Shown here: positions 1 to 11,771 of the stretch, piece after piece
Layout: the number at the start of each line of letters is the position of its first letter
Position numbering within the stretch: position 1 is the first letter of the stretch
Assembly (NCBI RefSeq): GCF_013520865.1
Contig: NZ_JACDXJ010000005.1
Coordinates: 1-11,771 of the forward strand
From: Microvirga mediterraneensis
GTDB taxonomy: Bacteria > Pseudomonadota > Alphaproteobacteria > Rhizobiales > Beijerinckiaceae
DNA length: 11,771 nucleotides
Direction of reading: 5' to 3'
Position numbers and translations under genes: made by a program
Notes under the pieces: model-generated
Databases searched by the model: none
What the model saw: only the letters and a program-made list of their open reading frames with translations
What the model was told of the DNA's origin: nothing

Positions 1-74
1 ATATCTTCATCGGCGAGAGCCTCGACGATCACCTCGCGGACCCTCTCCTCGTCATCGACCACCAAAACGCGCAT
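1..74 (-). CDS. Duplicate 5' end of the receiver gene (overlap artefact)
   Basis: The minus strand from 74 to 1 encodes the first residues of the single-domain receiver described in full at 11356-11718. The ATG lies at 74-72. It is the same gene seen a second time because of the 127-bp terminal overlap, not a second paralogue. It should be removed once the circle is closed. Confidence 0.85.
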   Translation of the reverse strand, partial: MRVLVVDDEERVREVIVEALADED

Positions 75-127
75 GTGTTATCTTTTCATTCGAGCGAGCA
101 TGTCCCTGCGGCTCGCCGTCGACGGCG
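1..127. repeat. Terminal direct repeat, left copy (circle overlap)
   Basis: Every base of 1-127 recurs in the same orientation at 11645-11771. A perfect 127-bp direct repeat at the exact ends of a contig, with an odd length equal to a commonly used largest k-mer, is the usual signature of a circular molecule opened by a de Bruijn graph assembler. The overlap cuts through the receiver gene and its upstream region, not through a boundary of biological sense, which argues against a phage-type terminal repeat. Confidence 0.9.
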
Positions 128-138
128 GAGGAGACGGC

Positions 139-163
139 GGAACCTTAGCCGTTCGGACGCATT
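139..163 (+). promoter_or_regulatory. EcfG-like (general stress) promoter candidate
   Basis: GGAAC at 139-143 is followed after 16 bases by CATT at 160-163. The alphaproteobacterial general stress sigma factor EcfG recognises GGAAC-N16/17-CGTT, so this matches a perfect -35 element and three of four -10 bases. It sits about 36 bases upstream of the PRC-barrel start codon, a normal distance. PRC-barrel exoproteins are plausible members of such regulons. The call rests on one motif only. Confidence 0.4.
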
Positions 164-198
164 GTCCGGCCTCTAGCACGCAGCAACGGAGTCAACCA

Positions 199-594
199 AT
201 GCGCAGGATCCTGATCGCCCTCGCCGCCACGACAATGCTCGCCGGGGCCTCCTCCGCCCAGACGGCGGTGACCACGACACAAGAGGTGTTCGTCAAGGCG
301 CAGCCAACCGACGTGCTGAGCGCCAACCTCATCGGCCTCAACATCACCAACGAGGCCAACGAGACCATCGGCGAGATCAAGGACCTGATCCTCTCGCAGG
401 GCCAGCTGTCCGGCTACATCATCTCGGTCGGCGGTTTTCTCGGCATGGGCGAGCGCTACGTCATCGTGCGCCCGAGCGCCGTGAAGGTCACTTACGACGA
501 GAACGGCAAGAAATGGCACGCGGTGATGAACGCCAGCAAGGACCAGCTCAAGACCGCGCCCGAGTTCAAGTACGAAGGTCGCTGGGAGCGCTGA
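199..594 (+). CDS. Secreted PRC-barrel domain protein
   Basis: This gene encodes a 131-aa protein with a clear N-terminal Sec signal peptide: MRR, then a hydrophobic stretch to about residue 17, with a likely cut after A-S-S-A near residue 20. A PRC-barrel domain follows at about 42-110 (N-L-I-G-L-N-I-T-N, then G-E-I-K-D-L-I-L and the F-L-G-M-G-E-R-Y-V turn). PRC-barrels are small beta-barrel folds used in RNA processing, photosynthetic reaction centres and many exported alphaproteobacterial proteins of unknown role; here it is probably periplasmic. The ATG at 199 was preferred over the ATG at 73 because it has GGAG at 188-191 with a 7-nt spacing and starts a signal peptide. A possible EcfG-type promoter lies upstream and a strong terminator follows, so the gene appears monocistronic. 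The exact function is unknown. Confidence 0.85.
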   Translation: MRRILIALAATTMLAGASSAQTAVTTTQEVFVKAQPTDVLSANLIGLNITNEANETIGEIKDLILSQGQLSGYIISVGGFLGMGERYVIVRPSAVKVTYDENGKKWHAVMNASKDQLKTAPEFKYEGRWER

Positions 595-617
595 TCCAAC
601 CCGGCCACGTCTTTCAT

Positions 618-647
618 GGAAAAGGCCCCTCGCGGGGCCTTTTTTTT
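618..647 (+). terminator. Rho-independent terminator
   Basis: A perfect 9-bp stem (621-629 paired with 634-642, arms AAAGGCCCC / GGGGCCTTT) with a TCGC tetraloop is followed by a run of eight T (640-647). It lies 25 bases after the PRC-barrel stop codon. Four A residues precede the stem, so it may also weakly stop transcripts from the convergent minus-strand gene at 682-1107. Confidence 0.9.
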
Positions 648-681
648 GCGTTCTGGCGTCTTCCCACGTCCAAGCCGTGAA

Positions 682-1107
682 TTATCCGACAAGCCGCCGC
701 CACCAGGGCCTCACGGCCAGGCCATGCCACCGGTCGCGGTCTTCCCGAAGCTCCACCACACGGGCTTCAGCAGCATCGGCCCGCCGACGCTCGGCATCGA
801 GAGCCAAGCGCAGGCCCACAACCTCTCCCTCAAGCCGCGCGAGAGCCTCATGAACCGGGTTCACAGGAGGCGTCGACACCGTCGACGTAGGCAGTGTCGT
901 ATCCGGTGACGTAGGCGGGTTCGTAGCCGGTGTCGTCGCCTGCTTCACCTCAAGCAGATCGGACGGCACCGCCACCCTGGCCTTGCCGTCATTGCCCACT
1001 TGGCGCGGCCAGCGGCCCCGCCGCGCCTTCTGTTTCACGGAGGCAGCGGAAATGCCGAGCGCCTCAGCCGCCTCGGCATAGCTCATCCATACGGTCGACT
1101 CCGTCAC
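682..1107 (-). CDS. HTH (excisionase/MerR-like) DNA-binding protein with C-terminal coiled coil
   Basis: The product is 141 aa. Residues about 8-50 (M-S-Y-A-E-A-A-E-A-L-G-I-S, then V-K-Q-K-A-R-R-G-R-W-P) form a helix-turn-helix of the kind that reads 'W-x-S-x-x-E-A-A-x-x-L-G-I-S', as in excisionases and plasmid regulators. Residues 55-85 are a Thr/Pro-rich linker with an 8-residue internal repeat. Residues 86-127 are a heptad-like coiled coil, and the tail is basic (R-P-W-W-R-R-L). The start is GTG at 1107, chosen because GGAGG lies 8 nt upstream (1116-1120); an internal ATG at 1086 is the alternative. The architecture suggests a dimeric DNA-binding protein for plasmid maintenance or copy control, or a KfrA-like regulator. 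No specific target is proven. It lies alone and convergent with the PRC-barrel gene. Confidence 0.75.
   Translation of the reverse strand: MTESTVWMSYAEAAEALGISAASVKQKARRGRWPRQVGNDGKARVAVPSDLLEVKQATTPATNPPTSPDTTLPTSTVSTPPVNPVHEALARLEGEVVGLRLALDAERRRADAAEARVVELREDRDRWHGLAVRPWWRRLVG
923..938. repeat. 16-bp direct repeat, copy inside the HTH gene
   Basis: GTAGCCGGTGTCGTCG here differs at one base from 1127-1142, which lies just upstream of the same gene's start. Both copies are followed downstream on the plus strand by a GCTTCAC sequence. The intragenic copy belongs to a degenerate 24-nt tandem repeat (about 20 of 24 identical) that encodes the Thr/Pro linker of the HTH protein. Confidence 0.6.
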
Positions 1108-1231
1108 GGCCTACACCTCCGGTGCTGTAGCGGGTGTCGTCGGCGGCTACGTAGGGGGCTTCACAAAGCAGGAACGCTACCGGCCGCATGGTTAACGAAA
1201 GATTACCAGAGGCCCACCAACCAGGCTCCCG
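1108..1231 (-). promoter_or_regulatory. Upstream region of the HTH gene with repeat and inverted motifs
   Basis: This 124-bp gap between the toxin gene and the HTH gene holds the GGAGG ribosome site (1116-1120) and the second copy of the 16-bp repeat (1127-1142). It also holds an inverted pair GTAGC (1127-1131) / GCTAC (1146-1150) and an 8-bp palindrome CTACGTAG (1147-1154). These are candidate binding sites for the HTH protein itself. No convincing -35/-10 pair was found. Confidence 0.35.
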
Positions 1232-1516
1232 CTACAGGGCTTCCGGCCACTTGCGCGCGCCATGGAAGACCCGGAGCACCGTCACGGCCTCCTCGTCGAT
1301 GCGGTAAGCCACGACGTAGGCGGTGCGGTTGATCGGGAGCTCGCGGGTGCCAGCGACACGGCCCTCGCGGCCCATGAGAGGATGCCGGGCCAGGGCCGCC
1401 ACCTGGCCGGCGATCTCGTCATGGATCCTGTAGGCAGCCTCCGGATCATCGTTGGCGATATAAACCACGATGCCGGCGAGATCCTCCTCGGCCAGGGGAT
1501 GCCACTCAAGCCTCAT
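1232..1516 (-). CDS. parE: Type II toxin, RelE/ParE family
   Basis: The product is 94 aa, the usual length for this toxin fold. It begins M-R-L-E-W-H-P-L-A-E-E-D-L, a typical ParE/RelE N-terminus, followed by the helix I-V-V-Y-I-A-N-D-D-P-E-A-A. The middle has L-A-R-H-P-L-M-G-R-E-G-R, then T-R-E-L-P-I-N-R-T-A-Y-V-V-A-Y-R-I and the final strands V-T-V-L-R-V-F-H-G-A-R-K-W-P. ParE members poison DNA gyrase while RelE members cleave mRNA; the sequence fits ParE-like proteins better, but the target is inferred. The ATG at 1516 was chosen because homology begins exactly there and it overlaps the antitoxin stop by 11 nt, giving translational coupling. Its role here would be plasmid stabilisation. 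Confidence 0.9.
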   Translation of the reverse strand: MRLEWHPLAEEDLAGIVVYIANDDPEAAYRIHDEIAGQVAALARHPLMGREGRVAGTRELPINRTAYVVAYRIDEEAVTVLRVFHGARKWPEAL

Positions 1517-1835
1517 GCGGTTCGCCACGCTTCTCCGCCGCCATCTGGTCGATGATGGCGCGCGTCCGGCCCATGACCGCATCATGCGGCACAGCCGGGC
1601 GAGGGTCATCCAAAGCCGCCTGGATACGGCCGCGCACCCACTCGTCATGCCCTGACTCCGACTGGATTTCCCGCTCGCCACGGGCACACTCGACATAGGC
1701 GCGCATGAAGTCGCGGATCACCTGCGCGGCGGAGCGGTCGGCCAGCTCGGCCGCCGTCTTGAACGCCACCTTGAGATCGGCGGGAACCCGGAAGTTGAAG
1801 TTCTCCTCCTTTGGGTAACTGGTGGTGCGGGGCAT
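1506..1835 (-). CDS. Type II antitoxin, ribbon-helix-helix family
   Basis: The product is 109 aa. An N-terminal ribbon-helix-helix DNA-binding segment occupies about residues 9-50 (N-F-N-F-R-V-P-A-D-L-K-V-A-F, then R-S-A-A-Q-V-I-R-D-F-M-R-A-Y). The acidic, helical C-terminal half should wrap the toxin. It precedes and overlaps the toxin gene by 11 nt, the canonical antitoxin-first order. The ATG at 1835 has GGAGG at 1842-1846, 6 nt upstream. A 30-bp near-perfect palindrome lies at 1853-1882 where the operator and promoter should be, so autorepression by antitoxin or antitoxin-toxin complex is likely. It resembles RelB/ParD-like CopG-fold antitoxins; the exact subfamily is not settled. Confidence 0.88.
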   Translation of the reverse strand: MPRTTSYPKEENFNFRVPADLKVAFKTAAELADRSAAQVIRDFMRAYVECARGEREIQSESGHDEWVRGRIQAALDDPRPAVPHDAVMGRTRAIIDQMAAEKRGEPHEA

Positions 1836-1852
1836 AGCCTTCCTCCAAAATT

Positions 1853-1882
1853 GCGATGATTATGTAATTACACATTCATCGC
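1853..1882. promoter_or_regulatory. 30-bp palindromic operator of the toxin-antitoxin operon
   Basis: The outer arms GCGATGA (1853-1859) and TCATCGC (1876-1882) and the inner palindrome TGTAATTACA (1863-1872) share the same centre. Thirteen of fifteen base pairs match across the 30 bp. It is strikingly AT-rich in a GC-rich replicon and lies 18-47 nt upstream of the antitoxin ATG, downstream of the preceding minus-strand stop. It probably contains the -10 region and the RHH operator half-sites. A role as terminator for the upstream operon is less likely because there is no T-run. Confidence 0.7.
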
Positions 1883-1890
1883 CTAAAGGT

Positions 1891-2517
1891 TCAAGGCAAA
1901 TACCAGCCGCCCGCACCGGCCACGTCGACGAAGCAGGCCATGCGGCCGTCAGACGCCGGCTTCCTGACCCACTTCTCGCCAGTGCACTCGGCCACCCGGC
2001 GCAGGAGCCCAGTATCGGCCATACGCTTCGCCAGCCGCCCGTCGGCGGAGTTGCCCCATTCGGCCGCCACCTTCTCGTCCCTGGCCATGGCATAGGCCTC
2101 GGCATAGCCCCTCTCGGAGCCCCAGCGGCTCGCCTGCCACCAGACCCCAGCCAGGGCCAGGACGGACACGCCAACAGCCAGGGCAAAGGCCCTGAGCTGC
2201 TTCGTGCCGGCAGCATCCGCCGCAACCTTCTGCGCCACACCGGCCACGGATTCGGACAGCTTCTTCAGGGCCTCCTGAGAGGAAGCCGCCATCACGGCGT
2301 CCGCCGTCTCCTTGGTCTTCACCAGCGCCTCATCAAGGGCTGCGCCGAGCTTGGCCGGAATGCGCTCATGATAGGAGCGGTAGTATTCCAAGGCGATGAT
2401 CAGAGACCAGAGCGCATCATTGTCCCGGATGCCGAGCGCATCCCGGACCTTGAGCAGCTTCTGCCTCTCGGCATCGCTCATCGGACGCCCCACCAGGGTC
2501 TCAAAGGCATCCTTCAT
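1891..2517 (-). CDS. TraM-position membrane protein (DUF6753-like)
   Basis: The product is 208 aa. The N-terminal helical part has M-S-D-A-E-R-Q-K-L-L-K-V-R-D-A-L-G-I-R-D-N-D-A-L-W, followed by an amphipathic, possibly coiled region to about 105. A single transmembrane segment lies at about 109-128 (F-A-L-A-V-G-V-S-V-L-A-L-A-G-V-W-W). The C-terminal domain of about 80 aa contains two Cys (C178, C195). The ATG at 2517 lies 2 nt after the stop of the ParA-like gene, so the genes are translationally coupled. The first N-D-A-L-W part recalls DUF6753 plasmid proteins, and its place as third gene leaving oriT matches RP4 traM. Family and function are tentative; a membrane anchor for the ATPase or relaxosome is an inference. 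Confidence 0.7.
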   Translation of the reverse strand: MKDAFETLVGRPMSDAERQKLLKVRDALGIRDNDALWSLIIALEYYRSYHERIPAKLGAALDEALVKTKETADAVMAASSQEALKKLSESVAGVAQKVAADAAGTKQLRAFALAVGVSVLALAGVWWQASRWGSERGYAEAYAMARDEKVAAEWGNSADGRLAKRMADTGLLRRVAECTGEKWVRKPASDGRMACFVDVAGAGGWYLP

Positions 2518-2519
2518 CG

Positions 2520-3200
2520 CTACACCAGCCGCTCGATCACCTTGCGGACCTCCGCGCGCCACCGGTCGAGCTCGACCCGGTTGCCAAGGGGCATCCCTTC
2601 GCGGGCCGCCTGGATCGACTTGCGATCCGTATAGAAGGCATCCGCCACGCGATCCGCCAGATCAGGAAAGTCGAGCACCCCACCCTTGCCGCTGCCGGCC
2701 TCCTCCAGCGCCTTGCGCAGGTTGGTCGCGTTGAAGAATTCGAACTTGCTGGCCGGCGAGAAGTAGAGGTTGCGCAGGATGTAGAACGGCACCCCCGGCA
2801 TCCTGTCATGGACGAGCTTGGCCGCCTCGATGCTATCGCGGCCCCGGTTGATCGGCCACACGATCACTAGCCTCCGGCCGAGTTCCTTGGCGGCCTCCTT
2901 GAGGCCCCCGCCATACTCGATGATACCCGGCAGCGATCCCGCCGCGCTGTTGATCACCACCGGCGCATCTGCCTGCTCCTCCAGGGCGTTCACCAGATCG
3001 ATCCACCCATCCGCCACGTTCAGGTCAACCGTCAGGCTCGGCAGGTGCGGATAGGCCTTCGCCACGTCACTGTTGCTCTGGTCCGTCTCAACCAGCACCG
3101 GTGTCTCGCCGCTCTGCTCCAAATAGTCCAACAACGCCATGGAGACGAGCGACTTGCCGACCCCTCCCTTGCTGCCCCCAGCCAAGTACACGCCGCTCAT
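2520..3200 (-). CDS. traL: ParA/MinD-type ATPase, TraL-like
   Basis: The product is 226 aa. The deviant Walker A motif G-G-S-K-G-G-V-G-K-S lies at residues 8-17, with the signature lysine two residues into the K-G-G-V-G-K-S core. D-Q-S-N-S-D near residue 40 and the hydrophobic strand P-V-V-I-N-S-A-A-G near 80 replace the usual switch and Walker B motifs. Such ATPases segregate plasmids (ParA) or, in RP4 Tra1, support transfer (TraL, about 240 aa). Two starts are possible. GTG at 3206 overlaps the upstream stop with only 4 nt to the AGGAGG at 3211-3216. ATG at 3200 has 10 nt spacing and repeats the 2-nt gap seen at the next junction, and was preferred. No ParB-like partner gene is evident, which favours the TraL reading. 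Confidence 0.8.
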   Translation of the reverse strand: MSGVYLAGGSKGGVGKSLVSMALLDYLEQSGETPVLVETDQSNSDVAKAYPHLPSLTVDLNVADGWIDLVNALEEQADAPVVINSAAGSLPGIIEYGGGLKEAAKELGRRLVIVWPINRGRDSIEAAKLVHDRMPGVPFYILRNLYFSPASKFEFFNATNLRKALEEAGSGKGGVLDFPDLADRVADAFYTDRKSIQAAREGMPLGNRVELDRWRAEVRKVIERLV

Positions 3201-3202
3201 TC

Positions 3203-3577
3203 TCACAGATCCTCCTGATCCGGCCTAATCTTAAACGAACCCAACGGCTTCTTTGCCTCCACGGCTTGCTTCGGAGCCGCCTCCTTCTTCGTCACCACCG
3301 TCGGCTTCTTCGATACCGACCTCGCCTTCGGCTTTGCCTTCCCCTTCGCCCGCGTCAAGTAGCTCTTGAGCGTCGTGCTGCCGATATCCAGGCCTTCACC
3401 GCGCAGAACCTCGGCAATGTGCTCCAGCGTATATCCGCGCTGCCGCAGCGCCTCGATCTCCTTGCGCAGCGAGGTTACCACCTCCTGCTTATTCAGCTTG
3501 CGTGGCGGCGGCTGCACCGCAGGCAGCGCCTCCAGCTTCTTCGCGATCTCCGCGACCTTCTCTTCCGTGAATTCCAT
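3203..3577 (-). CDS. traK: TraK-like oriT-proximal DNA-binding protein
   Basis: The product is 124 aa, against roughly 130 aa for RP4 TraK. The N-terminus is a charged helix (E-E-K-V-A-E-I-A-K-K-L-E-A-L-P). The core at about 30-78 reads L-N-K-Q-E-V-V-T-S-L-R-K-E-I-E-A-L-R, then Q-R-G-Y-T-L-E-H-I-A-E-V-L and T-T-L-K-S-Y-L-T-R-A, an HTH-like arrangement common in mobilization proteins. The Lys/Ala-rich tail is probably disordered and DNA-contacting. ATG at 3577 was chosen over ATG at 3598 because GGGAG lies 8 nt upstream only for the former. It is the first gene of a three-gene operon with a strong promoter next to oriT, matching RP4 traK, whose product wraps oriT. Identity at sequence level to RP4 TraK was not tested. 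Confidence 0.7.
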   Translation of the reverse strand: MEFTEEKVAEIAKKLEALPAVQPPPRKLNKQEVVTSLRKEIEALRQRGYTLEHIAEVLRGEGLDIGSTTLKSYLTRAKGKAKPKARSVSKKPTVVTKKEAAPKQAVEAKKPLGSFKIRPDQEDL

Positions 3578-3623
3578 TGCCTTCTCCCGAATCGCCATCC
3601 GTGTTCAAGCTGCCTCGTCCGGC

Positions 3624-3652
3624 ATTATAGTCCAGCTTCGTTGTGCTGCCAA
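3624..3652 (-). promoter_or_regulatory. Sigma70-type promoter of the traKLM-like operon
   Basis: On the minus strand TTGGCA (3652-3647) and TATAAT (3629-3624) are separated by exactly 17 bases. The -10 box is perfect and the -35 box matches five of six bases. It fires away from the candidate nic site, which lies 22 bp upstream of the -35 box, so proteins bound at oriT could repress it, as relaxosome proteins do on RP4-type plasmids. Confidence 0.75.
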
Positions 3653-3670
3653 ACGTAGCGTGTTAAATTG

Positions 3671-3719
3671 GTAGCAGGATGGTCCTTGTCATACACATGC
3701 AGTGCATGTGGTGCCAAGG
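3671..3719 (-). other. oriT: Origin of transfer: nic site and inverted repeat
   Basis: The minus strand reads CATCCTG|C at 3681-3674, matching the IncP/MOBP nic consensus YATCCTG|Y, with cleavage expected between 3675 and 3674. Eight bases on the 5' side of it starts an inverted structure. The outer arms are CCTTG (3684-3688) and CAAGG (3715-3719); the perfect inner 8-bp arms are CACATGCA (3694-3701) and TGCATGTG (3703-3710). In RP4 the TraJ-bound inverted repeat lies at a comparable distance from nic. The site lies in the gap between the divergent traK-like and traJ-like genes, the expected place. Cleavage would send the traK side into the recipient first. Confidence 0.8.
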
Positions 3720-3768
3720 CACGCCGGGGCGTTCGGCGCTTGCGCTTCTCACACCACGGCTCAACCTG

Positions 3769-3839
3769 CCAGGGGCGAGCCCCTGGACCCCCACCCGCTC
3801 GGCGCTTCGCTTTTCGCAGGCGTCCGGGCACAACCCGGA
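3769..3839 (+). other. Leader hairpins of the traJ-traI operon
   Basis: Two hairpins lie between oriT and the traJ-like start. The first pairs CCAGGGGC (3769-3776) with GCCCCTGG (3779-3786). The second pairs TCCGGG (3823-3828) with CCCGGA (3834-3839) across a 5-nt loop. The 3' arm of the second overlaps the GGAGG ribosome site (3837-3841) of the next gene, so it could mask it. No T-run follows either stem, so they do not look like terminators. Confidence 0.45.
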
Positions 3840-3847
3840 GGCTTCGC

Positions 3848-4147
3848 GTGCCCTTCGAACCTATCGGCCCGGTCAAGCTCGATGCCATCGTCAACGTGAG
3901 GCTCACGCCGGACGAGAAGGCGGACCTCGTGCGCCAAGCGGGTGACGCCGGCCTGTCCGTGTCCGAGCTGGTTCGCCGCCGCGCGCTCGGCCGTCGCGTC
4001 GACACCGCGCTTGACCGCGCCACGCTCAACGAGCTGAGACGCCTGGGCGGGCTGTTCAAACAGGCCTTCGCCACCGGAGCCGACAAAGCGCAAACCGGAG
4101 CTGCCTTGCAGGCCGTGCGCGAGGCCATCGAAAGGCTGTCCCGATGA
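3848..4147 (+). CDS. mobC: Relaxosome accessory protein, TraJ/MobC family
   Basis: The product is 99 aa. A ribbon-helix-helix domain spans about residues 10-50: V-K-L-D-A-I-V-N-V-R-L-T-P-D-E-K forms the strand and first helix, and G-L-S-V-S-E-L-V-R-R-R-A-L-G-R the second helix. The C-terminal half has L-N-E-L-R-R-L-G-G-L-F-K-Q, typical of MobC/TraJ proteins that bind the oriT inverted repeat and recruit the relaxase. The start is GTG at 3848, with GGAGG at 3837-3841 and 6 nt spacing; upstream in-frame codons do not resemble protein. Its TGA overlaps the relaxase ATG (ATGA), so the two are co-translated. It corresponds in place and role to RP4 TraJ. Confidence 0.85.
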   Translation: MPFEPIGPVKLDAIVNVRLTPDEKADLVRQAGDAGLSVSELVRRRALGRRVDTALDRATLNELRRLGGLFKQAFATGADKAQTGAALQAVREAIERLSR

Positions 4148-5802
4148 TCGTGAAGCGCTCCGCCGACCGAGGCGGCAAGAGCCGCGCCGCATCCGCCAAA
4201 GCCATCGTCGAGTACATCACACGCGCCGAGAAGGGGGAGCGCCCCCTCCACATCGGCAGCGAGGGTTTCTTCGCGGAATCATTGCAAGCCCAAACCGCCG
4301 AGATGGCCGCGCTGGCACAATGCGCGATCCGATCGAGGAACCCGGTTTCGCACTTCATCCTGTCCTGGCCGGAGCACGAGAAGCCGACGCCGGAGCAGGC
4401 CGACGAGGCCGCCCGGATCTTCATGCGCGAACTCGGACTTGAGGGCCATCAAGCGATCTGGGCCTTGCACGACGACACCAGGGTCCGGCACCTGCACATC
4501 GCCCTGAACCGGACCCATCCCGAGACAGAACGAGCCGTGAAGATCAACAAGGGCTTCGACATCAACGCGGCCCATCGGGCCGTCGCGATCATCGAGAAGG
4601 AACAGGGTTGGGAGCCCGAGGCCCGGGCCCTCTTCCAGATCGACGACCAGGGCCAAGCGGTCGCCGCAGAACGCGACACGAACCGCCATCCGACCAGCAA
4701 AGCCCGCGACTTCGAACACCGGACAGGCGAGCGATCCGCGCAACGGGTCGCCATCGAGGATCTCGCTCCCCTCATCCGGGAAGCGGCCTCCTGGAAGCAG
4801 CTCCACGCCGCCCTCGCGGACCGCGGCGCATCCTACATCAAGAAGGGATCAGGCGGTCTAATCCTCGTCGGCGAAACGCCCATCAAAGCCAGCCGGGCCG
4901 ACCGTTCAGCCTCACTAACAGCTCTCACGAAACGCCTCGGCCCCTACGAGCCAGCACAGACACAGGTCCAGGAAAAGACCCTCTCGGCCACACCAGAGCA
5001 GGCCATGCCGGCCCCGTCACTCAGCGCCGCGCGGTTCCTGGAATACTGGCAGCAGCGGGCCGCCTGGCTGCGCGAAAAGAAGGCCGCCACTGAGAAGCTG
5101 AAGGCCCGGCAGGAGATCGAGCGCGAGGCGCTGAAGCGGAAGCACGCCCAGCAGCGGACAGAGGCCCTGCGCGGGGTCTGGCGCAACCGGGGCGAGGCCC
5201 TGAACGCGATGAGGGCGGCCGTCGCGGCCGCCCAAAAGGCCGACCGAGCCGAGCAACGCAAACTGCACCAGGCCGAACGGGAGCACCTGCGGGAGCGGCA
5301 CCCGCCCCTGCCATCCTACGAGGCCTGGCTGCGCCTCGGCGGCCACGCCAAAGAAGCCGACGCCTGGCGCGAGCGCCTGCGGTCAACCGCGATCATGGGC
5401 GTCTCATGGGTGGAGCCAAAGCCCTCGAACCGTGCCGATGTAAGGGCCTTCGAGGCGGTTCCGGTCGGGCGCGAGGTGCACTACCGCCGCGAAGGCCGGA
5501 CCGATCTGGTCGACCGGGGCCGTTCCATCGGCCTCGCCAAAACCGACGACACCGCCATCCTCGCTGCCCTGCAGATCGGGCACGAGAAATGGGGCGGCGT
5601 GGCACTCCGGGGCAGCCTGGAGTTCCGCCAGCGGGCGGCCACACTCGCCATCGCACACCGCATCCAGGTCCGCGACCCTGGCGAAGGCGTCGATCTCAAG
5701 GCAATCCAGAAAGCTCACGAGCTGAAGCAGGAGCAGACCATCACGCAATCACAAACGCAGAAGGTTCACCGGAGCCGCGAGCGGGGAGGATACAGCCGAT
5801 AG
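4144..5802 (+). CDS. traI: MOBP relaxase, RP4 TraI-like, with C-terminal LPD7 domain
   Basis: The product is 552 aa. The relaxase domain fills about residues 1-240. Motif I is I-V-E-Y-I-T with Tyr24 the likely nucleophile (RP4 TraI uses Tyr22 in V-K-Y-I-T). Motif II is H-F-I-L-S-W with Ser74. Motif III is H-D-D-T-R-V-R-H-L-H-I-A-L-N-R with metal-binding H109, H116, H118 and D111. Residues 235-275 (W-K-Q-L-H-A-A-L-A-D-R-G, then I-K-A-S) match the accessory region found after many TraI relaxases. Residues about 296-380 are a charged coiled segment. Residues about 438-512 look like the large polyvalent protein domain LPD7 (V-D-R-G-R-S-I, A-A-L-Q-I-G-H-E-K-W-G, final R-D-P-G). It should nick the nearby oriT and pilot the strand. 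At 552 aa it is shorter than RP4 TraI and lacks a primase or helicase. Confidence 0.92.
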   Translation: MIVKRSADRGGKSRAASAKAIVEYITRAEKGERPLHIGSEGFFAESLQAQTAEMAALAQCAIRSRNPVSHFILSWPEHEKPTPEQADEAARIFMRELGLEGHQAIWALHDDTRVRHLHIALNRTHPETERAVKINKGFDINAAHRAVAIIEKEQGWEPEARALFQIDDQGQAVAAERDTNRHPTSKARDFEHRTGERSAQRVAIEDLAPLIREAASWKQLHAALADRGASYIKKGSGGLILVGETPIKASRADRSASLTALTKRLGPYEPAQTQVQEKTLSATPEQAMPAPSLSAARFLEYWQQRAAWLREKKAATEKLKARQEIEREALKRKHAQQRTEALRGVWRNRGEALNAMRAAVAAAQKADRAEQRKLHQAEREHLRERHPPLPSYEAWLRLGGHAKEADAWRERLRSTAIMGVSWVEPKPSNRADVRAFEAVPVGREVHYRREGRTDLVDRGRSIGLAKTDDTAILAALQIGHEKWGGVALRGSLEFRQRAATLAIAHRIQVRDPGEGVDLKAIQKAHELKQEQTITQSQTQKVHRSRERGGYSR

Positions 5803-5954
5803 CTGCCAGCGGATCATCGTTCCAACAAGACCACAATCACCGCGCCGAGGCTGAAGAATTCCTCCGCGTCCTGCGGGAGCTACGCGAGCAACTCCATGTC
5901 CATCGCCGCCTGATCCTCGAACGGATCGAGGCGCTGCGCGCCAACAATCCCTGA
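5799..5954 (+). CDS. Possible 51-aa charged helical protein with ATA start
   Basis: An open frame of 51 codons follows the relaxase in a different frame. Its product ends in a compact amphipathic helix (E-E-F-L-R-V-L-R-E-L-R-E-Q-L, then R-R-L-I-L-E-R-I-E-A-L-R). There is no ATG, GTG or TTG between the relaxase C-terminus and this helix. However, ATA at 5799 overlaps the relaxase stop (ATAG) and has a strong GGGGAGG (5783-5789) 9 nt upstream. That mimics the ATGA-type coupling seen upstream. Either a rare ATA start is used, an ATG was lost by a point mutation, or the frame is the leftover of a longer protein. Expression is unproven. Confidence 0.4.
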   Translation: MAASGSSFQQDHNHRAEAEEFLRVLRELREQLHVHRRLILERIEALRANNP

Positions 5955-5984
5955 TTGGGGTGTCACTGCCCGGTCCCGGCATCA

Positions 5985-6097
5985 AGCCGCTGCGCGGCTC
6001 CTCCACTGCGTTCCGGCCCTGACGGGTGACGCCGCGCCCAGCCAGCGACTTGGCTTGGCATGGGCAAGGCTCCGCCCTGCCCTTCTCCCCGAGAAGG
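5985..6097. other. Hairpin cluster between convergent relaxase and rep genes
   Basis: The gap from 5955 to 6141 holds no gene but three stem-loops. AGCCGC (5985-5990) pairs with GCGGCT (5994-5999). GGGCA-a-GGC (6062-6070) pairs with GCC-c-TGCCC (6074-6082). CCTTCTC (6081-6087) pairs with GAGAAGG (6091-6097) over a CCC loop. The region is where transcripts of the relaxase operon (plus) and rep (minus) meet, so bidirectional termination is one reading. Because the replicon looks like a rolling-circle plasmid, a single-strand or double-strand origin is another. The sequence does not decide. Confidence 0.4.
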
Positions 6098-6141
6098 ACC
6101 AGATCCCACCGATTCGGAACAGTATTGCGCGCTGGAAGAAC

Positions 6142-8133
6142 CTAAGCGGCCACGGAGGGCGGCGCGCGGGGACCTTCGCGCGTCCGATTTGCAACGGTGG
6201 AACGCGGAAAATCCGGACAGTTATCGTGTATGTCTGCCACCTTACTGGACCAACCCGCCTTTCGGCGGTCCGGCATCATGCGCCGCGCGCGCGCGGCGGC
6301 GCTGCGGGCGTCGACGCGCAGGGTCTTGAGGTTGACCAGGCACGGCCGGCCGTCGGGCAGGCGCTCGACGCGGCATTCCTTTGTTACAAAGTCACAAAGG
6401 AAGCGCCCGCCCAGCTCCTCGTACCAGTCCTCGGGGGCGGCCGGGCCATAAGCCTCAACGAAACGGCCTTGGTCGACCACCGTCACGGCCTTGCGCCAGA
6501 CCCGCCAGACGGCCCGGCAGCGGACGCGCGCGCCAGTCCTGTCGTACTCGAGGCCGACCCGCTCCACGCGGTCGAAGCCGGCCGGCGGCACGGTCGCGGC
6601 CTGGTAGCTCTCCGACCACGGCCCCTTGCGCTCCTCGCCCGCGATGGCGGGCGCGACGGTCACGACGGGATGGCCCCGGACCTCGGGCACCTCGTCCGGG
6701 CGCTCGTGCATGGTGGCGATGCGGGCGATGGCCGGGTCGAGGATGGCCGAGCGGGAGGCCTCGGGAACGCGGGCGTTGTAGATCGAGCGGACATAGTCGA
6801 CGTAGCCGGTGCGGGGGGCGTCCCAGGCCCGCAGGATGTCGTCGCCGGCGAGCTTGCCGGTGTAGTTCGCGACCAGCACCGCAGGGGCCCGGAAGCGGGC
6901 TCCGCGCGCCGACGGCGGCACTTCGGCCATGACGGCATCAAAGCGCACCCCTTCCGATTCCGGGCGCGTGACCCTGACCCCAGGCATGACGTAGACCTTG
7001 GCCATACCCTCGCCCGCCTGCACGAACTTCAGGTGCTTGGCGGGCTTCTTGACCAGCTCGATGGTCCCGTCAGGCCGCTTCACCTCGATGTCCTCGGGCC
7101 GGAACTGCTTCGACCAGTCCAAGAACCCCCCGAGCTTGCGGTGCATCTGGAGCCGGTAGAGCTCCATCGAGAGCACCGCCAGCTCCTCGTCGGTCAGGGG
7201 ATCGGCGAGCAGGTTCCTGGCATAGCCGTCGGTGCCGTCGTTGGGGTTGTTCTCGTCGTTGTCCTTGGTGTCGTCGAAGCAGTACTTGACGACCTCGTCG
7301 GCCAGGTCGCCCTTCACGTACTTGGCATGCACGTTGAGATCGCCGGGCGCAGCGGCATGGATGCGAGCGAGAAAATCGTGCCACTTGCCCTCCTCCATCC
7401 ATTCGTGGAGGGCCGGCGCATGGGCGTGGATGTGGAAGAGCGGGAGACGGCTGTCGGGGCACCTGCCCTTGTACTTGACCTCGGTCGCGACGAGCGACGG
7501 GTCGAAGCGGGTGCCGAACTCGGCCGCGACCCCGCGCATCGTTGGCCAAACCACCCGTGACAGGTTGCGTGACAGACGGCGGCAGCCCCTGCGGACATCG
7601 TAGAGCCCCGTGAAGCGGAAGGAGGCGGTGAGGTGCGTCATGCGCAAGCCCTCCTGCCGCTTGAGCGCGGAATAGACCCGGAAGAGGCTCTTCATCTGGG
7701 TCTTGTTGCGCCGCCCGATGCCGGGCAGCACATTGAGGTTGCGCATCCTGATGTATTCGTTCTCGGCCGCCTCGCCGGTGGCGATGTTGACCATGGCGGC
7801 GCGGCCCGTCGGCGTGTCCCACTCGGCCGCGTCGACGCCGTAGACCGGCTTCGGCTGCGGATCGGGCCGCCAAGCAGTCCAGAGCTCACCCGTCCGTGGA
7901 TCGACGAGGCCGAGGCTCGCCGCCCCGCGGGTGATCCGCTCGGCCATGGTGACGGTGCGCTCGTAGAGGGCAAGCCTCGCCTGCTCCCCAAGCGCCTGGT
8001 CGCCGGCGTCCGTGCCGGTCAGGACGGCGAGCAGCGTCTCGCGATCAATGCTCGCGATCACCCCGGTGGAGCCGGGTTCCAGCTGGACTTGAAACGGCCG
8101 CGGAGGCCTCGCCTTGCGCCTAGCCTCGCCCAC
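6142..8133 (-). CDS. rep: Large rolling-circle replication initiator (HUH Rep, Rep_1-like)
   Basis: The product is 663 aa. The core carries the ordered motifs of pC194/pUB110-type Rep proteins. Motif 1 is M-T-H-L-T-A-S-F (166-173). A T-E-V-K-Y strand (217-221) leads to motif 2, F-H-I-H-A-H-A (233-239), the metal-binding HUH. L-N-V-H-A-K-Y-V-K precedes motif 3, D-E-V-V-K-Y-C-F-D-D (279-288), where E280-x-x-K283-Y284 matches the E-x-x-K-Y catalytic signature. Such Reps nick the double-strand origin through the tyrosine and start rolling-circle synthesis. At 663 aa it is about twice the usual length; the extra N-terminal 160 and C-terminal 350 residues are unassigned. The GTG at 8133 has AGGAAAGG upstream at 9 nt; the nearby ATG at 8138 is out of frame. 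The last 40 residues look low-complexity. No other replication gene is present, supporting the call. Confidence 0.78.
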   Translation of the reverse strand: MGEARRKARPPRPFQVQLEPGSTGVIASIDRETLLAVLTGTDAGDQALGEQARLALYERTVTMAERITRGAASLGLVDPRTGELWTAWRPDPQPKPVYGVDAAEWDTPTGRAAMVNIATGEAAENEYIRMRNLNVLPGIGRRNKTQMKSLFRVYSALKRQEGLRMTHLTASFRFTGLYDVRRGCRRLSRNLSRVVWPTMRGVAAEFGTRFDPSLVATEVKYKGRCPDSRLPLFHIHAHAPALHEWMEEGKWHDFLARIHAAAPGDLNVHAKYVKGDLADEVVKYCFDDTKDNDENNPNDGTDGYARNLLADPLTDEELAVLSMELYRLQMHRKLGGFLDWSKQFRPEDIEVKRPDGTIELVKKPAKHLKFVQAGEGMAKVYVMPGVRVTRPESEGVRFDAVMAEVPPSARGARFRAPAVLVANYTGKLAGDDILRAWDAPRTGYVDYVRSIYNARVPEASRSAILDPAIARIATMHERPDEVPEVRGHPVVTVAPAIAGEERKGPWSESYQAATVPPAGFDRVERVGLEYDRTGARVRCRAVWRVWRKAVTVVDQGRFVEAYGPAAPEDWYEELGGRFLCDFVTKECRVERLPDGRPCLVNLKTLRVDARSAAARARRMMPDRRKAGWSSKVADIHDNCPDFPRSTVANRTREGPRAPPSVAA

Positions 8134-8445
8134 CGCATGCCGCCTTTCCTGGCGGCAGGAGGGGCCGGCGCGCAGATTCCCGATTCCCTTCCGGAGCGGG
8201 ACGCGCTATAACCAGCTGTGCGGGTGGTCGATGCTCTTTGAGCAACGATCTACTCCATGTTGTGATGCTCCTCGTCGCGCTATGGCCGCCAAACCTTCAC
8301 GCGATGCAGTCGCATCGATCACCCCGCACCACCTTCTCGAATCGCGATGCAGGCACAGCCGAACCGCTCGGCTGCACCGTCATGCTTAACAGGAAATAAC
8401 CTGAGCGTGAAGCGGGGCCGTCACGCCGTCAGGCCAGGGTGGCCT
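8134..8445. other. Non-coding region upstream of rep with hairpins and direct repeats
   Basis: I see no credible gene in this 312-bp stretch. It holds a direct repeat CGCGATGCAG (8299-8308 and 8343-8352). The first repeat copy also forms a hairpin with CGATGC/GCATCG arms, and next to the second lies a 7-bp hairpin CAGCCGA (8356-8362) / TCGGCTG (8368-8374) with a 5-nt loop. TATAGC on the minus strand (8214-8209) could be a -10 element for rep. This is a reasonable place for a replication origin or rep control element, but no nick-site consensus was recognised. Confidence 0.4.
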
Positions 8446-8550
8446 TCAGCCTATCACCCCATAGACGGCGGCCCCGATCACCAGCGCCCCAATGAGCAGC
8501 ACCGGGGGGAACCAGTCCGGATACGGCTTCTCGTGACCGTTGTAGCTCAT
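8446..8550 (-). CDS. 34-aa single-pass membrane protein
   Basis: A short frame encodes a 34-aa protein: a polar N-terminus of about 14 residues (M-S-Y-N-G-H-E-K-P-Y-P-D-W-F), then a transmembrane helix at about 15-33 (P-P-V-L-L-I-G-A-L-V-I-G-A-A-V-Y-G-V-I-G). The ATG at 8550 has GAGG (8555-8558) 4 nt upstream. The sharp polar-to-hydrophobic layout and the Shine-Dalgarno make chance unlikely, though the frame is short. It stands alone on the minus strand, divergent from the DUF6894-like gene. Its function is unknown; small toxins of type I systems and small regulators of membrane complexes have this shape. No antisense RNA was identified. Confidence 0.55.
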   Translation of the reverse strand: MSYNGHEKPYPDWFPPVLLIGALVIGAAVYGVIG

Positions 8551-8644
8551 GTGACCTCGCTGCGGTTGGTTAAGCCTCGCCCGATGGAGCGGAACCGGGC
8601 GGTTTCATAACAGCGGTCATCCTGGCCTTGGAAGCCAGCTCCGC

Positions 8645-8650
8645 TATAAT
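8645..8650 (+). promoter_or_regulatory. Candidate -10 box upstream of the DUF6894-like gene
   Basis: A perfect TATAAT lies 38 bases before the start codon of the gene at 8689. No good -35 box was found at 16-18 bases; TTGGAA at 8628-8633 leaves only 11 bases. The promoter is therefore tentative. If real, transcripts may continue into the kinase gene, as no terminator was seen between the two genes. Confidence 0.35.
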
Positions 8651-8688
8651 GGCAGTCGACGCGGCTGTGGTTGTAGCGAGGCGGCCGC

Positions 8689-8919
8689 ATGAGATGTTAC
8701 TTCCATCTGGTCAGTGCGACCGAGCACCTCCTCGACACCACGGGTGTCGAAGTCGCCAGTGCTCACCAGGCCTATTCTGTCGCCCTGACCGTGCTGCAAG
8801 AGCTGCGTGACGAAGGCGACAGCGACAGCTGGAACGGCTGGTTCCTTGATGCAACTGATTCGACCGGTCACGTTATGTTCTCGATCAATCTGACCACCGA
8901 AGCCATGGCTTTGCATTAG
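8689..8919 (+). CDS. DUF6894-like small protein
   Basis: The product is 76 aa, beginning M-R-C-Y-F-H-L-V and followed by D-T-T-G-V-E-V-A-S-A-H-Q-A-Y, a helix with L-Q-E-L-R-D-E, then W-N-G-W-F-L-D-A-T-D-S-T-G-H-V-M-F-S-I-N-L. This pattern (F-H-L, D-x-x-G-x-E, W-x-x-W, D-x-x-G-x-x-L/M-F) is that of the DUF6894 family, which is abundant in Methylobacterium and related genera and has no known function. The ATG at 8689 has GAGG at 8678-8681 with 7 nt spacing. The gene precedes the histidine kinase by 92 bp on the same strand. It may belong to the same stress-signalling cassette, but that is an inference from position. Confidence 0.8.
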   Translation: MRCYFHLVSATEHLLDTTGVEVASAHQAYSVALTVLQELRDEGDSDSWNGWFLDATDSTGHVMFSINLTTEAMALH

Positions 8920-8973
8920 TGCCGCCCGGCTTCCAGAGGCCGCGCTTGCGCACGCTTCAGCTTGCGGTACAAC

Positions 8974-8994
8974 GGGTGCCGAAGTTTCGCACCC
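8974..8994. promoter_or_regulatory. Inverted repeat upstream of the ParD-kinase gene
   Basis: The outer arms GGGTGC (8974-8979) and GCACCC (8989-8994) flank inner arms GAA (8981-8983) and TTC (8986-8988), with one unpaired C at 8980 and a 2-nt centre. That gives nine pairs in 21 bp. It ends 17 nt before the kinase ATG, where no Shine-Dalgarno is seen. It may be an operator for the kinase's own RHH domain, or an RNA hairpin that affects translation. Confidence 0.45.
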
Positions 8995-9011
8995 CTACCC
9001 CCCCTGCTGCC

Positions 9012-10673
9012 ATGCCCTCGAAGTCTTCCTTGAACGTCTCCCTCACGCCCGAATGGGCGGCCTTCATCGCGGATAAAGTCCAGTCCGGCGAGTACCGCAG
9101 CGCCAGCGAGGTGGTGCGGGCCGGCCTGCGGACCCTGACCCAGGAGAGCCGGAAGGATCAGCCGAAGGGCACCGCGCCCGCCCCTTGCGACCTCAGCTTC
9201 CTCGACGACGGCAGCGAAATGGGCCGGCTGATGCGGGCCCACGACTGGTCGCGCACCGCGCTTGGCCCGCTCGCCACCTGGCCACAGAGCCTGAAAACCA
9301 CGGTCGGCATCCTGCTGCGCTCGCCCATCCCCATCGTGCTGCTGTGGGGTCCGGACGGGGTGATGATCTACAACGACGCCTATTCGGTGTTCGCCGGCGG
9401 CCGCCATCCGCTCCTGCTCGGCGCGAAGGTGCGCGAGGGCTGGCCCGAGGTCGCCGATTTCAACGACCACGTCATGCAGGTGGTCTTGGGCGGCGGCACG
9501 CTGTCCTACCAGGACCAGGAGCTGACGCTGTACCGGAAAGGCCGGGCCGAACAGGTCTGGATGAACCTGGATTACAGCCCGGTGCTCGACGAGAGCGGCC
9601 GGCCCGCCGGGGTGCTGGCCATCGTGGTGGAAACCACGGAACGGGTGCTGGCCGAGCAGCGGGTGGCGGCCGAGGGCGAGCGCTTCCGCAGCCTGTTCCA
9701 GAAGGCGCCCGGCTTCATGGCAATGCTGCGCGGCCCCGAGCATGTGTTCGAGATCGTCAACGACTCCTACGTCCAGCTGATCGGCCACCGGGATGTGATC
9801 GGCAAACCGGTTCGGACGGCGCTGCCGGAGATCCAGGGCCAAGGCTTCCTCGAGCTGCTCGACACCGTGTTCACAAGCGGCGAACCGTTCCGGGGCCATG
9901 CACTGCCGGTGAAGCTCCAGCGGCAGCCCCACGGACCCGTCGAGGAGCGCTTCGTCGAATTCGTCTACCAGCCGATCAGCGACAGCACCGGCCGCGTCAC
10001 AGGGATCTTCGTCGAGGGCTATGACGTCACCGAGCGGGTCGAAGGCGAGGACAAGCAAAAGCTGCTGCTGCGCGAGCTGAACCACCGGGTGAAGAACCTG
10101 TTCGCCATCGCCAGCGGCATGGTGACGATCAGCGCCCGCTCGGCCAGCACCCCACGGGAGATGGCCCAGGTGCTGCACGGGCGGCTCAATGCGCTGGCGC
10201 GGGCCAACGAGCTCATCCGTCCGGGGCTGATCGGCACCGAGCAGGATCAGGACCGCACGACCCTCGACCAACTGGTCGAGACGATTCTTCTGCCTTACGT
10301 CGACGAAGCCCGGGCCAAGGACCAGGAGTGCATCATCATCGACGGCCCCGCCGTGCCGGTGGGCGGCAATGCGGTGACCAGCCTCGCCCTGGCCTTGCAC
10401 GAGACCGCCACGAACGCCGCCAAATACGGCGCGCTCGCCGCGCCCAAAGGCTGCATCCGGGTCGATTGGCACGTCAAGGACACCGACCTGCATCTGCGCT
10501 GGGAGGAGACGGACGGCCCCGCCCTGACCTCACCGCCACAGATCCAAGGATTCGGCAGCAGCCTGGTGCAGCGGAGCATCGCCGGCCAGCTGCACGGCCA
10601 AATCAAGTATGACTGGCGGCAGGACGGCGTCACCGTCCATGTCACCGTGCCGCTGGAACGCCTTTCTCAATGA
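9012..10673 (+). CDS. ParD-type RHH domain fused to a PAS-PAS-HWE histidine kinase
   Basis: The product is 553 aa in one uninterrupted frame. Residues 1-47 match the ParD antitoxin N-terminus (S-L-N-V-S-L-T-P-E-W-A-A-F-I, then S-G-E-Y-R-S-A-S-E-V-V-R-A-G-L-R-T-L), a ribbon-helix-helix DNA-binding and dimerisation unit. After a short linker, residues 61-90 (F-L-D-D-G-S-E-M-G, H-D-W-S, T-W-P-Q-S-L) form the usual start of PAS-HWE kinases. PAS domains lie at about 92-212 and 222-342. The H-box L-N-H-R-V-K-N has H358, the N-box H-E-T-A-T-N-A-A-K-Y-G has E464 and N468, W497-E498 is the W-E of the family, and the G-box is G-F-G-S-S-L. No transmembrane segment is seen, so it should be cytosolic. The ATG at 9012 starts the ParD homology but lacks a ribosome site; GTG at 8919 is the longer alternative. 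A receiver gene follows 50 bp downstream. Confidence 0.88.
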   Translation: MPSKSSLNVSLTPEWAAFIADKVQSGEYRSASEVVRAGLRTLTQESRKDQPKGTAPAPCDLSFLDDGSEMGRLMRAHDWSRTALGPLATWPQSLKTTVGILLRSPIPIVLLWGPDGVMIYNDAYSVFAGGRHPLLLGAKVREGWPEVADFNDHVMQVVLGGGTLSYQDQELTLYRKGRAEQVWMNLDYSPVLDESGRPAGVLAIVVETTERVLAEQRVAAEGERFRSLFQKAPGFMAMLRGPEHVFEIVNDSYVQLIGHRDVIGKPVRTALPEIQGQGFLELLDTVFTSGEPFRGHALPVKLQRQPHGPVEERFVEFVYQPISDSTGRVTGIFVEGYDVTERVEGEDKQKLLLRELNHRVKNLFAIASGMVTISARSASTPREMAQVLHGRLNALARANELIRPGLIGTEQDQDRTTLDQLVETILLPYVDEARAKDQECIIIDGPAVPVGGNAVTSLALALHETATNAAKYGALAAPKGCIRVDWHVKDTDLHLRWEETDGPALTSPPQIQGFGSSLVQRSIAGQLHGQIKYDWRQDGVTVHVTVPLERLSQ

Positions 10674-10723
10674 CCTGTTGACGCTTAGGGCGCTAAGTTC
10701 TTGCCCTGGATAGGATTTTTATT

Positions 10724-11086
10724 TTGCTCCATGGCGCGTGCATCCTTGTCTGCGAGGACGAGCCCTTCATCGCTCTCGACCTGGCCCTCTCCATCGAAGA
10801 TGCGGGCGGACAGGTCGTCGGCCCGGCGGCCAGCATTGCCGAGGCGCGCGCGCTTCTGGCAACCACCGCGGTCTCAGGGGCCATCCTGGACGTGCACCTG
10901 AGCGACGGCGAGGTGACGCCGATTGCGGTGCAGCTGCTCGAAGGCGGCGTGCCGGTGGTGGTCCAGACCGGGGTCGGGCTGCCCTCCGACCTGAAGGCGC
11001 GCTATCCGGCCCTGCCGGTGCACACGAAGCCGGTATTCCCGCAGCATCTGATCGCGAAACTTGCCAGCCAAATAGCCCCTGCCTAA
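10724..11086 (+). CDS. Single-domain response regulator (receiver only)
   Basis: The product is 120 aa, a receiver domain without an output domain. Acidic residues E11 and D12 (C-E-D-E-P), phospho-acceptor D56 (A-I-L-D-V-H-L), T82 (V-Q-T-G) and K102 (H-T-K-P) are all in place, so it should be phosphorylatable. The start is TTG at 10724 with AGGA (10712-10715) 8 nt upstream; no in-frame ATG exists near the N-terminus. A 5-bp inverted repeat CTTAG/CTAAG (10684-10697) lies in the 50-bp gap after the kinase. Receivers of this type next to HWE kinases usually serve as phosphate sinks or relays, so the kinase is the likely donor. Confidence 0.85.
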   Translation: MLHGACILVCEDEPFIALDLALSIEDAGGQVVGPAASIAEARALLATTAVSGAILDVHLSDGEVTPIAVQLLEGGVPVVVQTGVGLPSDLKARYPALPVHTKPVFPQHLIAKLASQIAPA

Positions 11087-11115
11087 AGCTTGGGAATCCG
11101 AGGCCGTCTCAACCC

Positions 11116-11349
11116 ATGCCCCCTTTGCGACCGACCATGAGCCAGACCCCTCCCCCAAACGGTTCCACCAGCCAGTCGGATCAGGACCGCCGCTCGTTCC
11201 AAACGACAATGGACGAGGCCAACCGGGCCATCGCGGAGACGCAGGCCCAGATCGCCCGCTCGCGCGCCCTGGGCCAGGCCGAGGCTGACCTGGCGCGAAC
11301 CATCGACCGCATGAGCCAGGAGCCGGACGAATCGCGTGACCGGTCCTGA
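11116..11349 (+). CDS. Small coiled-coil protein of unknown function
   Basis: The product is 77 aa from the ATG at 11116, or 70 aa from the ATG at 11137. The N-terminal third is Pro/Ser/Gln-rich and probably disordered. From about residue 25 it is a single long charged helix (F-Q-T-T-M-D-E-A-N-R-A-I-A-E-T-Q-A-Q-I-A, then A-E-A-D-L-A-R-T-I-D-R-M), likely a coiled coil. The frame stays open through the receiver gene upstream, so its 5' limit is unclear. GAGG lies 12 nt before 11116, which is weak support. It follows the receiver by 29 bp on the same strand, probably in the same transcript, and meets the minus-strand receiver tail to tail with 6 bp between stops. I do not recognise the family. 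Confidence 0.55.
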   Translation: MPPLRPTMSQTPPPNGSTSQSDQDRRSFQTTMDEANRAIAETQAQIARSRALGQAEADLARTIDRMSQEPDESRDRS

Positions 11350-11355
11350 CCGGAT

Positions 11356-11718
11356 TCATCCCGCCGGTGCACTCCTCACCGATGCCAAGATTGCCGGCAT
11401 GAGTTGAGCAATCCGAGCCGGCTTGTTCAAGACAATGCCCCCTGGCACCAAACCCGTCTGGTCCTCGGCAAACCCCGAAGCGTAAACAACGCCGACCCCA
11501 GGCAGCACCACACGGAAGCGGCGCGCCAGCTCCCAGCCGTTGATGCCACCCGGCATGCGGATGTCCGTAAACAGGACATCGATCGGCGGCACCGCAGTGA
11601 GATATTGCAGGGCCTCCTCACCGCTGCCCGCCTGAAGAACCTCCATATCTTCATCGGCGAGAGCCTCGACGATCACCTCGCGGACCCTCTCCTCGTCATC
11701 GACCACCAAAACGCGCAT
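11356..11718 (-). CDS. Single-domain response regulator (receiver only)
   Basis: The product is 120 aa. D7, D8 and E9 (V-V-D-D-E-E), phospho-acceptor D52 (L-F-T-D-I-R-M-P), S81 (Y-A-S-G-F) and K99 (L-N-K-P) form a complete receiver active site; no effector domain follows. The T-D-I-R-M-P-G-G-I-N-G-W-E-L-A-R-R stretch is typical of receivers found beside alphaproteobacterial HWE kinases. The ATG is at 11718, with only a weak AAGA ribosome site. On the closed circle it is divergent from the PRC-barrel gene, with about 124 bp between the starts. Its phosphodonor is probably the plasmid kinase, but host kinases are equally possible. Confidence 0.85.
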   Translation of the reverse strand: MRVLVVDDEERVREVIVEALADEDMEVLQAGSGEEALQYLTAVPPIDVLFTDIRMPGGINGWELARRFRVVLPGVGVVYASGFAEDQTGLVPGGIVLNKPARIAQLMPAILASVRSAPAG

Positions 11719-11771
11719 GTGTTATCTTTTCATTCGAGCGAGCATGTCCCTGCGGCTCGCCGTCGACGGCG
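11645..11771. repeat. Terminal direct repeat, right copy (circle overlap)
   Basis: This is the second copy of the 127 bases found at the start of the window. It holds the first 74 coding bases of the minus-strand receiver gene plus 53 bases upstream of it. Joining the two copies gives a unit of 11,644 bp, and the receiver gene and the PRC-barrel gene then become divergent neighbours. Confidence 0.9.

Follow-up and report, generated by a model that had tools for sequence, protein, structure and literature searches.

The window analyzed here, a stretch of 11,771 nucleotides from Microvirga mediterraneensis (contig NZ_JACDXJ010000005.1, positions 1 to 11,771), carries at 9012-10673 (+) a gene for a single chain of 553 amino acids in which a ParD-type ribbon-helix-helix (RHH) domain is followed by two PAS domains and an HWE histidine kinase core. 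A two-gene rhh-kinase unit is common in Microvirga, and this fusion represents one of its forms. The locus is best explained as the fused version of this unit, and we consider this explanation likely: a ParD-derived RHH autorepressor is joined to a PAS-type kinase that takes the place of the ParE toxin, the operator is located at 8974-8994, and phosphate is passed on to a single-domain response regulator. The identity of the RHH, PAS and HWE domains, their recurring association, the operator motif and the match of this motif to the RHH class were all obtained by computation.

The RHH domain comprises residues 1-46 (9012-9149) and matched both PF03693 and TIGR02606, the latter with an E value of 1.1e-13 and above the cut-off. 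The profile searches thus bore out the original prediction, which had read an in-frame ParD RHH in front of two PAS domains and an HWE core and had proposed exactly such a search with RHH/ParD profiles. The TIGR02606 alignment stops at position 43 of the 70 profile positions and is followed by a linker (residues 47-60; 9150-9191) of low model confidence that lacks a toxin-binding tail. The first PAS domain spans residues 114-210 (9351-9641; PF13426) and the second residues 235-343 (9714-10040; PF08448). The HWE_HK domain (residues 355-434; 10074-10313; PF07536), with His358 as presumed phospho-acceptor, scored 56.8 bits against a curated cut-off of 22.8. The motifs of HWE kinases are named His box, N box and W-x-E. 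Across 37 aligned proteins, H358, R359 and N362 were invariant, and H463, N468, W497, E499 and G513, all of which are kept in the window protein, were present in at least 90%. In a model of the full protein, pLDDT values below 50 occurred at residues 1-8 and at residues 48-57 between RHH and PAS. Residues 1-60 modeled separately resembled ParD chains, and Foldseek with this small model returned nothing below an E value of 0.001. The beta-strand of the RHH, SLNVSL, is intact in sequence; DSSP did not recognize the strand in either model, as expected since each model is a single chain.

Across 48 genomes of Microvirga, TIGR02606 gave 64 matches, consisting of 54 stand-alone proteins and 10 RHH-kinase fusions in 9 of the genomes. 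Nine of the fusions were judged by eye, the tenth being the gene at 9012-10673 itself. In a protein search, fused homologues (P0011, P0014, P0017, P0025, and P0033) appeared among many RHH-less PAS-HWE kinases. The closest homologues after the near-identical P0002 are PAS-HWE kinases without an RHH, a result that speaks against our best explanation. A search with residues 1-60 alone, restricted to proteins whose length was 0.55 to 1.75 times that of the query, gave seven rows. Two of them are P0002 and P0011 and one is P0122 from Microvirga massiliensis; of the other four, P0123-P0125 are hybrid kinases that carry HATPase and receiver domains, and P0126 is an RHH-CheB protein. Fusions of the same RHH type are also found with CheB and with two-receiver hybrid kinases, the latter including loci L025 and L026. 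A PAS1 tree with 59 rows, which omits P0122 and a second fused group (L004-L010, L011), required six changes of the fused label, five of them forced by well-supported branches, indicating repeated gain or loss of the fusion.

In the second fused group, L004-L010 encode several PAS domains followed by HWE. L011 (54-1970, turned to +) has an RHH-PAS front like its relatives and, as judged by eye, a HisKA-type core instead of HWE. At L007 (744-3701, -) and L008 (989-3970, -), an RHH-less kinase near the type at 9012-10673 and an RHH-PAS-HWE fusion are encoded divergently, and the two genes may share one control region. L027, in which by eye an RHH lies in frame before PAS-HWE with no clear start codon nearby, was left out of the fusion count. 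The open frames L028 to L033 (302-448 aa) were fusion-like by length and turned out by eye to be stand-alone RHHs with spurious upstream frames. Likewise, a match on a plasmid of M. lotononidis (L035) consisted, by eye, of two separate kinase frames without RHH. Four further loci from the related-locus search of genome contigs were left out of the analysis. The searches at family, class and order level scored part of each genome's candidates, and the family matches are those listed; outside the family, most of the listed frames were about 84-180 aa long, with a few longer ones, e.g. G774 (907 aa) and G305 (491 aa).

Within the genus, RHH and kinase occur more often as separate proteins than fused (42 versus 10). 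These 42 are the stand-alone matches, out of 54, that lie directly 5' of a gene for a PAS protein, and the rhh-kinase unit, fused or as two genes, is present in 30 of the 48 genomes. The genome that carries the window also encodes an rhh and kinase pair as separate genes (L018). The remaining 12 loci lacked a called PAS gene (L012, L014, L015, L016, L037, L042, L058, L096, L097, L098, L101, and L102). One of them, L042, holds a full-length kinase match (92% to the L040 protein) that was missed by frame choice, and in L015, L097, and L098 an ORF of ParE size follows. Pfam was run on ORFs downstream of short rhh genes at 60 loci picked for a long downstream ORF, 42 from the genus and 18 from other family genomes. 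PAS_4 was detected in all 60 ORFs, HWE_HK in 19 and HisKA in 7, with many of the ORFs ending at the edge of the fetched stretch. The stand-alone RHH proteins were 57-72 aa long in 59 of 60 cases. With the kinase start codon taken by script as the one nearest the rhh stop, the kinase ORF overlapped the rhh gene in 46 of the 60 loci, with 11 and 20 bases as the commonest lengths of overlap; 12 others began within 30 bases of rhh, and two at 44 and 112. A set of 39 stand-alone loci from other family genomes was chosen mostly by frame length, so that their share is no rate. Downstream of full-length ParD, 14 of 15 ORFs scanned (from 25 such loci; L015, L097, and L098 are among the 15) encoded ParE. 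The copy in M. ossetica is annotated as 'type II toxin-antitoxin system ParD family antitoxin' followed by 'PAS domain S-box protein'. If the unit is defined by a short RHH that overlaps, or is fused to, a PAS kinase, the gene at 9012-10673 represents it in fused form.

The upstream regions share a palindrome. A palindromic model of 64 dereplicated upstream regions converged on GTGTCA-N5-TGACAC with a log-likelihood of 225, compared to at most 36.2 for 15 shuffled sets (spacer 5, same settings) and at most 40.2 for 6 shuffled sets (13 spacers, fewer starts). This pooled model is a sharper test than a per-sequence palindrome scan; the single-sequence scan with individual shuffles was weak and gave p <0.05 in 12 of 57 upstream regions. 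In 53 of 77 loci (expectation 1.44), no site in the locus scored higher than the consensus palindrome GTGNCA-N5-TGNCAC located just upstream; in 64 of 77 it ranked third or better. These ranks were determined by leave-one-out with similar upstreams also excluded, and a rank-1 site had to lie within 85 bases before the rhh start; the sites had first been placed by the pooled model, which is a slight leak. The 77 loci include L012, L037, L042, and L058 as well as L101, whose ParD-like gene had been assigned to the short class. Among 13 fused genes, 10 had a rank-1 upstream palindrome. The exceptions were the gene at 9012-10673 (rank 7) and L025 and L026, fusions of the HisKA-REC-REC type without a good upstream site (ranks 142 and 98). 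Upstream of the fused genes L004-L010, a stretch of 25 bases is nearly invariant; a search of the 48 genomes allowing up to three mismatches found it seven times, always in front of one of these seven genes, and its reversed control not at all. A direct repeat originally assumed in the promoter of this group was replaced by the palindrome GTGACA-N5-TGCCAC after other loci had been compared. The start codon of an RHH-PAS-HWE fusion at L023 is preceded, at a distance of one base, by a near-perfect inverted repeat (2664-2698, +) whose arms measure about 15 bases.

With the same matrix, 13 of 25 full-length ParD loci had a rank-1 site, and the design thus looks like a trait of ParD-type RHHs. Five of these loci (L031, L087, L089, L091, and L093) carry TTGNCA-N5-TGCCAA just upstream and L086 has a similar sequence with TGCCAT, making this motif a candidate for the general operator of that ParD class. 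The site classes track the classes of the beta-strand: TITASL occurs with GGTAAGAA-N3-TTCTTACC, and TRNVSL with GTGTCA-N5-TGACAC. We compared operator and RHH distances by Mantel tests on 30 dereplicated loci, for which 12 of the 77 sites, scoring below 3, and then near-identical RHHs were excluded. Operator distance correlated with beta-strand distance when the helices were held constant (partial r 0.37, a value that none of 5000 permutations attained) and also with helix distance when the strand was held constant (partial r 0.29), the latter indicating that shared descent accounts for part of the covariation between operator and RHH.

In the window, the predicted RHH operator is GGGTGCCGAAGTTTCGCACCC at 8974-8994, 17 bp before the start codon. 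Using a matrix from 11 loci with the window excluded, it ranked first of 11,751 window positions with a score of 8.8, followed by 3.9 for the next; these 11 loci have window-like RHHs of the SKS/AKS type and were grouped after the palindrome in the window had been seen by eye. Its rank was 1 with the five non-TITASL loci among the 11, and 2 with the six TITASL loci. Random sets of 11 other loci placed it first in 10 of 200 cases (median rank 10), a matrix of 46 loci of other classes ranked it fifth, and the pooled leave-one-out matrix ranked it seventh of 11,755 positions. The fused gene hence has an upstream palindrome of the matching class, as ranked by the subclass matrix. A single-sequence palindrome test on the region upstream in the window gave p 0.239 and picked a different site, and no sigma-70-like promoter was found at 8600-9100. 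In the genome of the strain itself, the 19-base core had one perfect match and three matches with three mismatches, versus two control matches; the lone perfect match suggests self-regulation rather than a regulon. The RHH very probably binds DNA in the region just upstream of its gene that the original prediction had named (8919-9011).

Selection was estimated from pN/pS. For the fused group L004-L010 (7 genes, with L004 cut by the contig end; 21 pairs), the values were 0.20 for the RHH, 0.64 for the linker, 0.20 for PAS, and 0.19 for HWE. The comparison of the window with L003, a single pair with 46 codons in the RHH, gave 0.47 (0.24/0.52) for the RHH, 0.16 (0.08/0.52) for PAS1, and 0.45 (0.37/0.83) for the linker. 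The divergence of the RHH was thus above that of PAS1 and about at linker level, indicating that constraint on the window copy is weaker or that its specificity is changing; a changing specificity is a possible reason for the looseness of this RHH.

The window ends (1-127 and 11645-11771) are identical over 127 bases, so that the contig probably represents a circular plasmid with a length of about 11,644 bp. It carries a complete toxin-antitoxin pair at 1232-1835 (-), in which the gene for ParE (1232-1516; PF05016) overlaps an antitoxin gene with a PaaA2-type tail (1506-1835). A protein of 663 aa encoded at 6142-8133 (-) had no Pfam match at E 0.01; our guess is that it is possibly a plasmid replication protein.

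According to the explanation that we favor, an RHH dimer would occupy the palindrome at 8974-8994 and repress the production of its own kinase. The PAS/HWE part would detect a signal and hand on phosphate to a response regulator of the single-domain kind, which is probably encoded by the next gene (10724-11086, +). This candidate acceptor matched Response_reg with an E value of 5.5e-4 and 20.5 bits, below the cut-off of 30.2; a second single-domain response regulator is encoded at 11356-11718 (-) (Response_reg, 1.1e-15). Each of them shows a receiver domain only, in agreement with the original prediction that both response regulators on this replicon lack output domains. Autorepression by the RHH, the most likely mechanism, would resemble that of ParD proteins, which are reported, in the available text of one study, to repress their own operons (PMC8251345). 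For the system at 9012-10673, we infer DNA binding, repression and the phosphate route.

A reading that adds to this explanation, and that we regard as possible on balance of evidence leaning against it, is that the repressor is gated by the signal: the state of the kinase (PAS ligand, ATP, phosphate on His358) would set the hold of the attached RHH dimer on its operator, and the kinase would thereby switch transcription directly. The repeated gain or loss of the fusion and the tight gene overlap point to RHH and kinase acting together as a unit, and the receiver-only nature of both nearby response regulators fits as well; on the other hand, the stretch between RHH and PAS is the one modeled with pLDDT values below 50, and separate proteins outnumber fusions in the genus. 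In the same tentative spirit, the locus may represent a toxin-antitoxin operon rebuilt as a sensor, which kept the DNA-binding half of the antitoxin and its operator and in which the kinase replaced the toxin. The fused kinase would then be a signal-gated repressor on DNA, the state of the kinase acting as toxin binding does in conditional autoregulation.

It is unlikely that the RHH has lost DNA binding and serves just to dimerize or oligomerize the kinase. A dimeric state is obligatory for the RHH fold and expected for the kinase, and the RHH in the window is more diverged than its PAS. However, its beta-strand is intact, a matching palindrome is present upstream, operator and strand covary, and the numerous PAS-HWE kinases without RHH indicate that the domain is unneeded for kinase dimerization.

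The original prediction had also raised the capture of a ParE toxin by the ParD part. A function as antitoxin would be in line with the TIGR02606 match above cut-off and with the ParE encoded on the same plasmid, and is nevertheless very improbable. The profile match ends short of the toxin-neutralizing part, which according to the available text of PMC8251345 is C-terminal to the RHH of ParD; the plasmid ParE has its own overlapping antitoxin gene; and the scanned partners of such RHHs were PAS proteins in 60 of 60 cases. Equally improbable is an RHH that results by chance from an open upstream frame, with translation beginning after residue 50: the frame is open as far 5' as 8919 and the close homologue P0003 does start after the RHH part, but several homologues keep the ATG and the RHH in frame, the RHH is under purifying selection in one fused group, and a TIGR02606 match with such an E value excludes a chance frame.

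In fold and sequence, the RHH resembles ParD antitoxins (Caulobacter ParD-1, 3kxe; V. cholerae ParD2, 7b22; PrpA, 7ycw), and the full-length ParD loci of these genomes share the palindrome design of the window locus. Of the features of the ParD family, the protein has the N-terminal DNA-binding RHH. Unlike ParD antitoxins, it has a linker, PAS and kinase domains instead of a C-terminal ParE-neutralizing region, and the gene directly downstream encodes a receiver protein rather than a cognate ParE, the PAS kinase being in the place of the toxin. The HWE core resembles that of the blue-light-activated HWE kinase (5epv, 6ph4); these entries match residues 328-548 but not residues 1-60. PutA is an RHH fused to a proline-catabolic enzyme and represses its own operon. 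By analogy, the protein described here carries an RHH on a large enzyme and would repress its own genes; however, the enzyme parts are unrelated, and the substrate switch of PutA is established whereas any switch here is hypothetical.

The statement in the original prediction that it knew of no described system with an RHH domain on a histidine kinase has to be corrected. RHH-HWE fusions already carry domain tags in databases, and the available text of one study mentions, in one sentence, four Arc-type RHH-HisKA-REC proteins in Lokiarchaeum, leaving open whether they are truly archaeal or contamination (PMC5847659). Like the window protein, these combine RHH and kinase core in one chain; they differ in the Arc type of the RHH and in the HisKA core with receiver, and that text presents no operator or gene pair (PMC5847659). 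Among the matches listed from open PubMed Central, we found no description of an RHH-kinase operon or of an RHH-HWE fusion. ParD repressors and HWE kinases are known kinds of proteins, and it is their arrangement that we did not find described there.

In the available text of PMC8251345, the mechanism by which parDE transcription is regulated is stated as not known, and early work on plasmid RK2 is said to have pointed to palindromes. The palindrome shared by the loci analyzed here could be tested as an operator of ParD proteins, too. Taken together, 42 stand-alone and 10 fused proteins of the 64 ParD-family matches in Microvirga are apparently partners of sensor kinases and not antitoxins. 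Counts of toxin-antitoxin systems would change if such ParD matches are kinase partners, PAS kinases gain a candidate partner, and the unit illustrates a route from an antitoxin to a signaling component.
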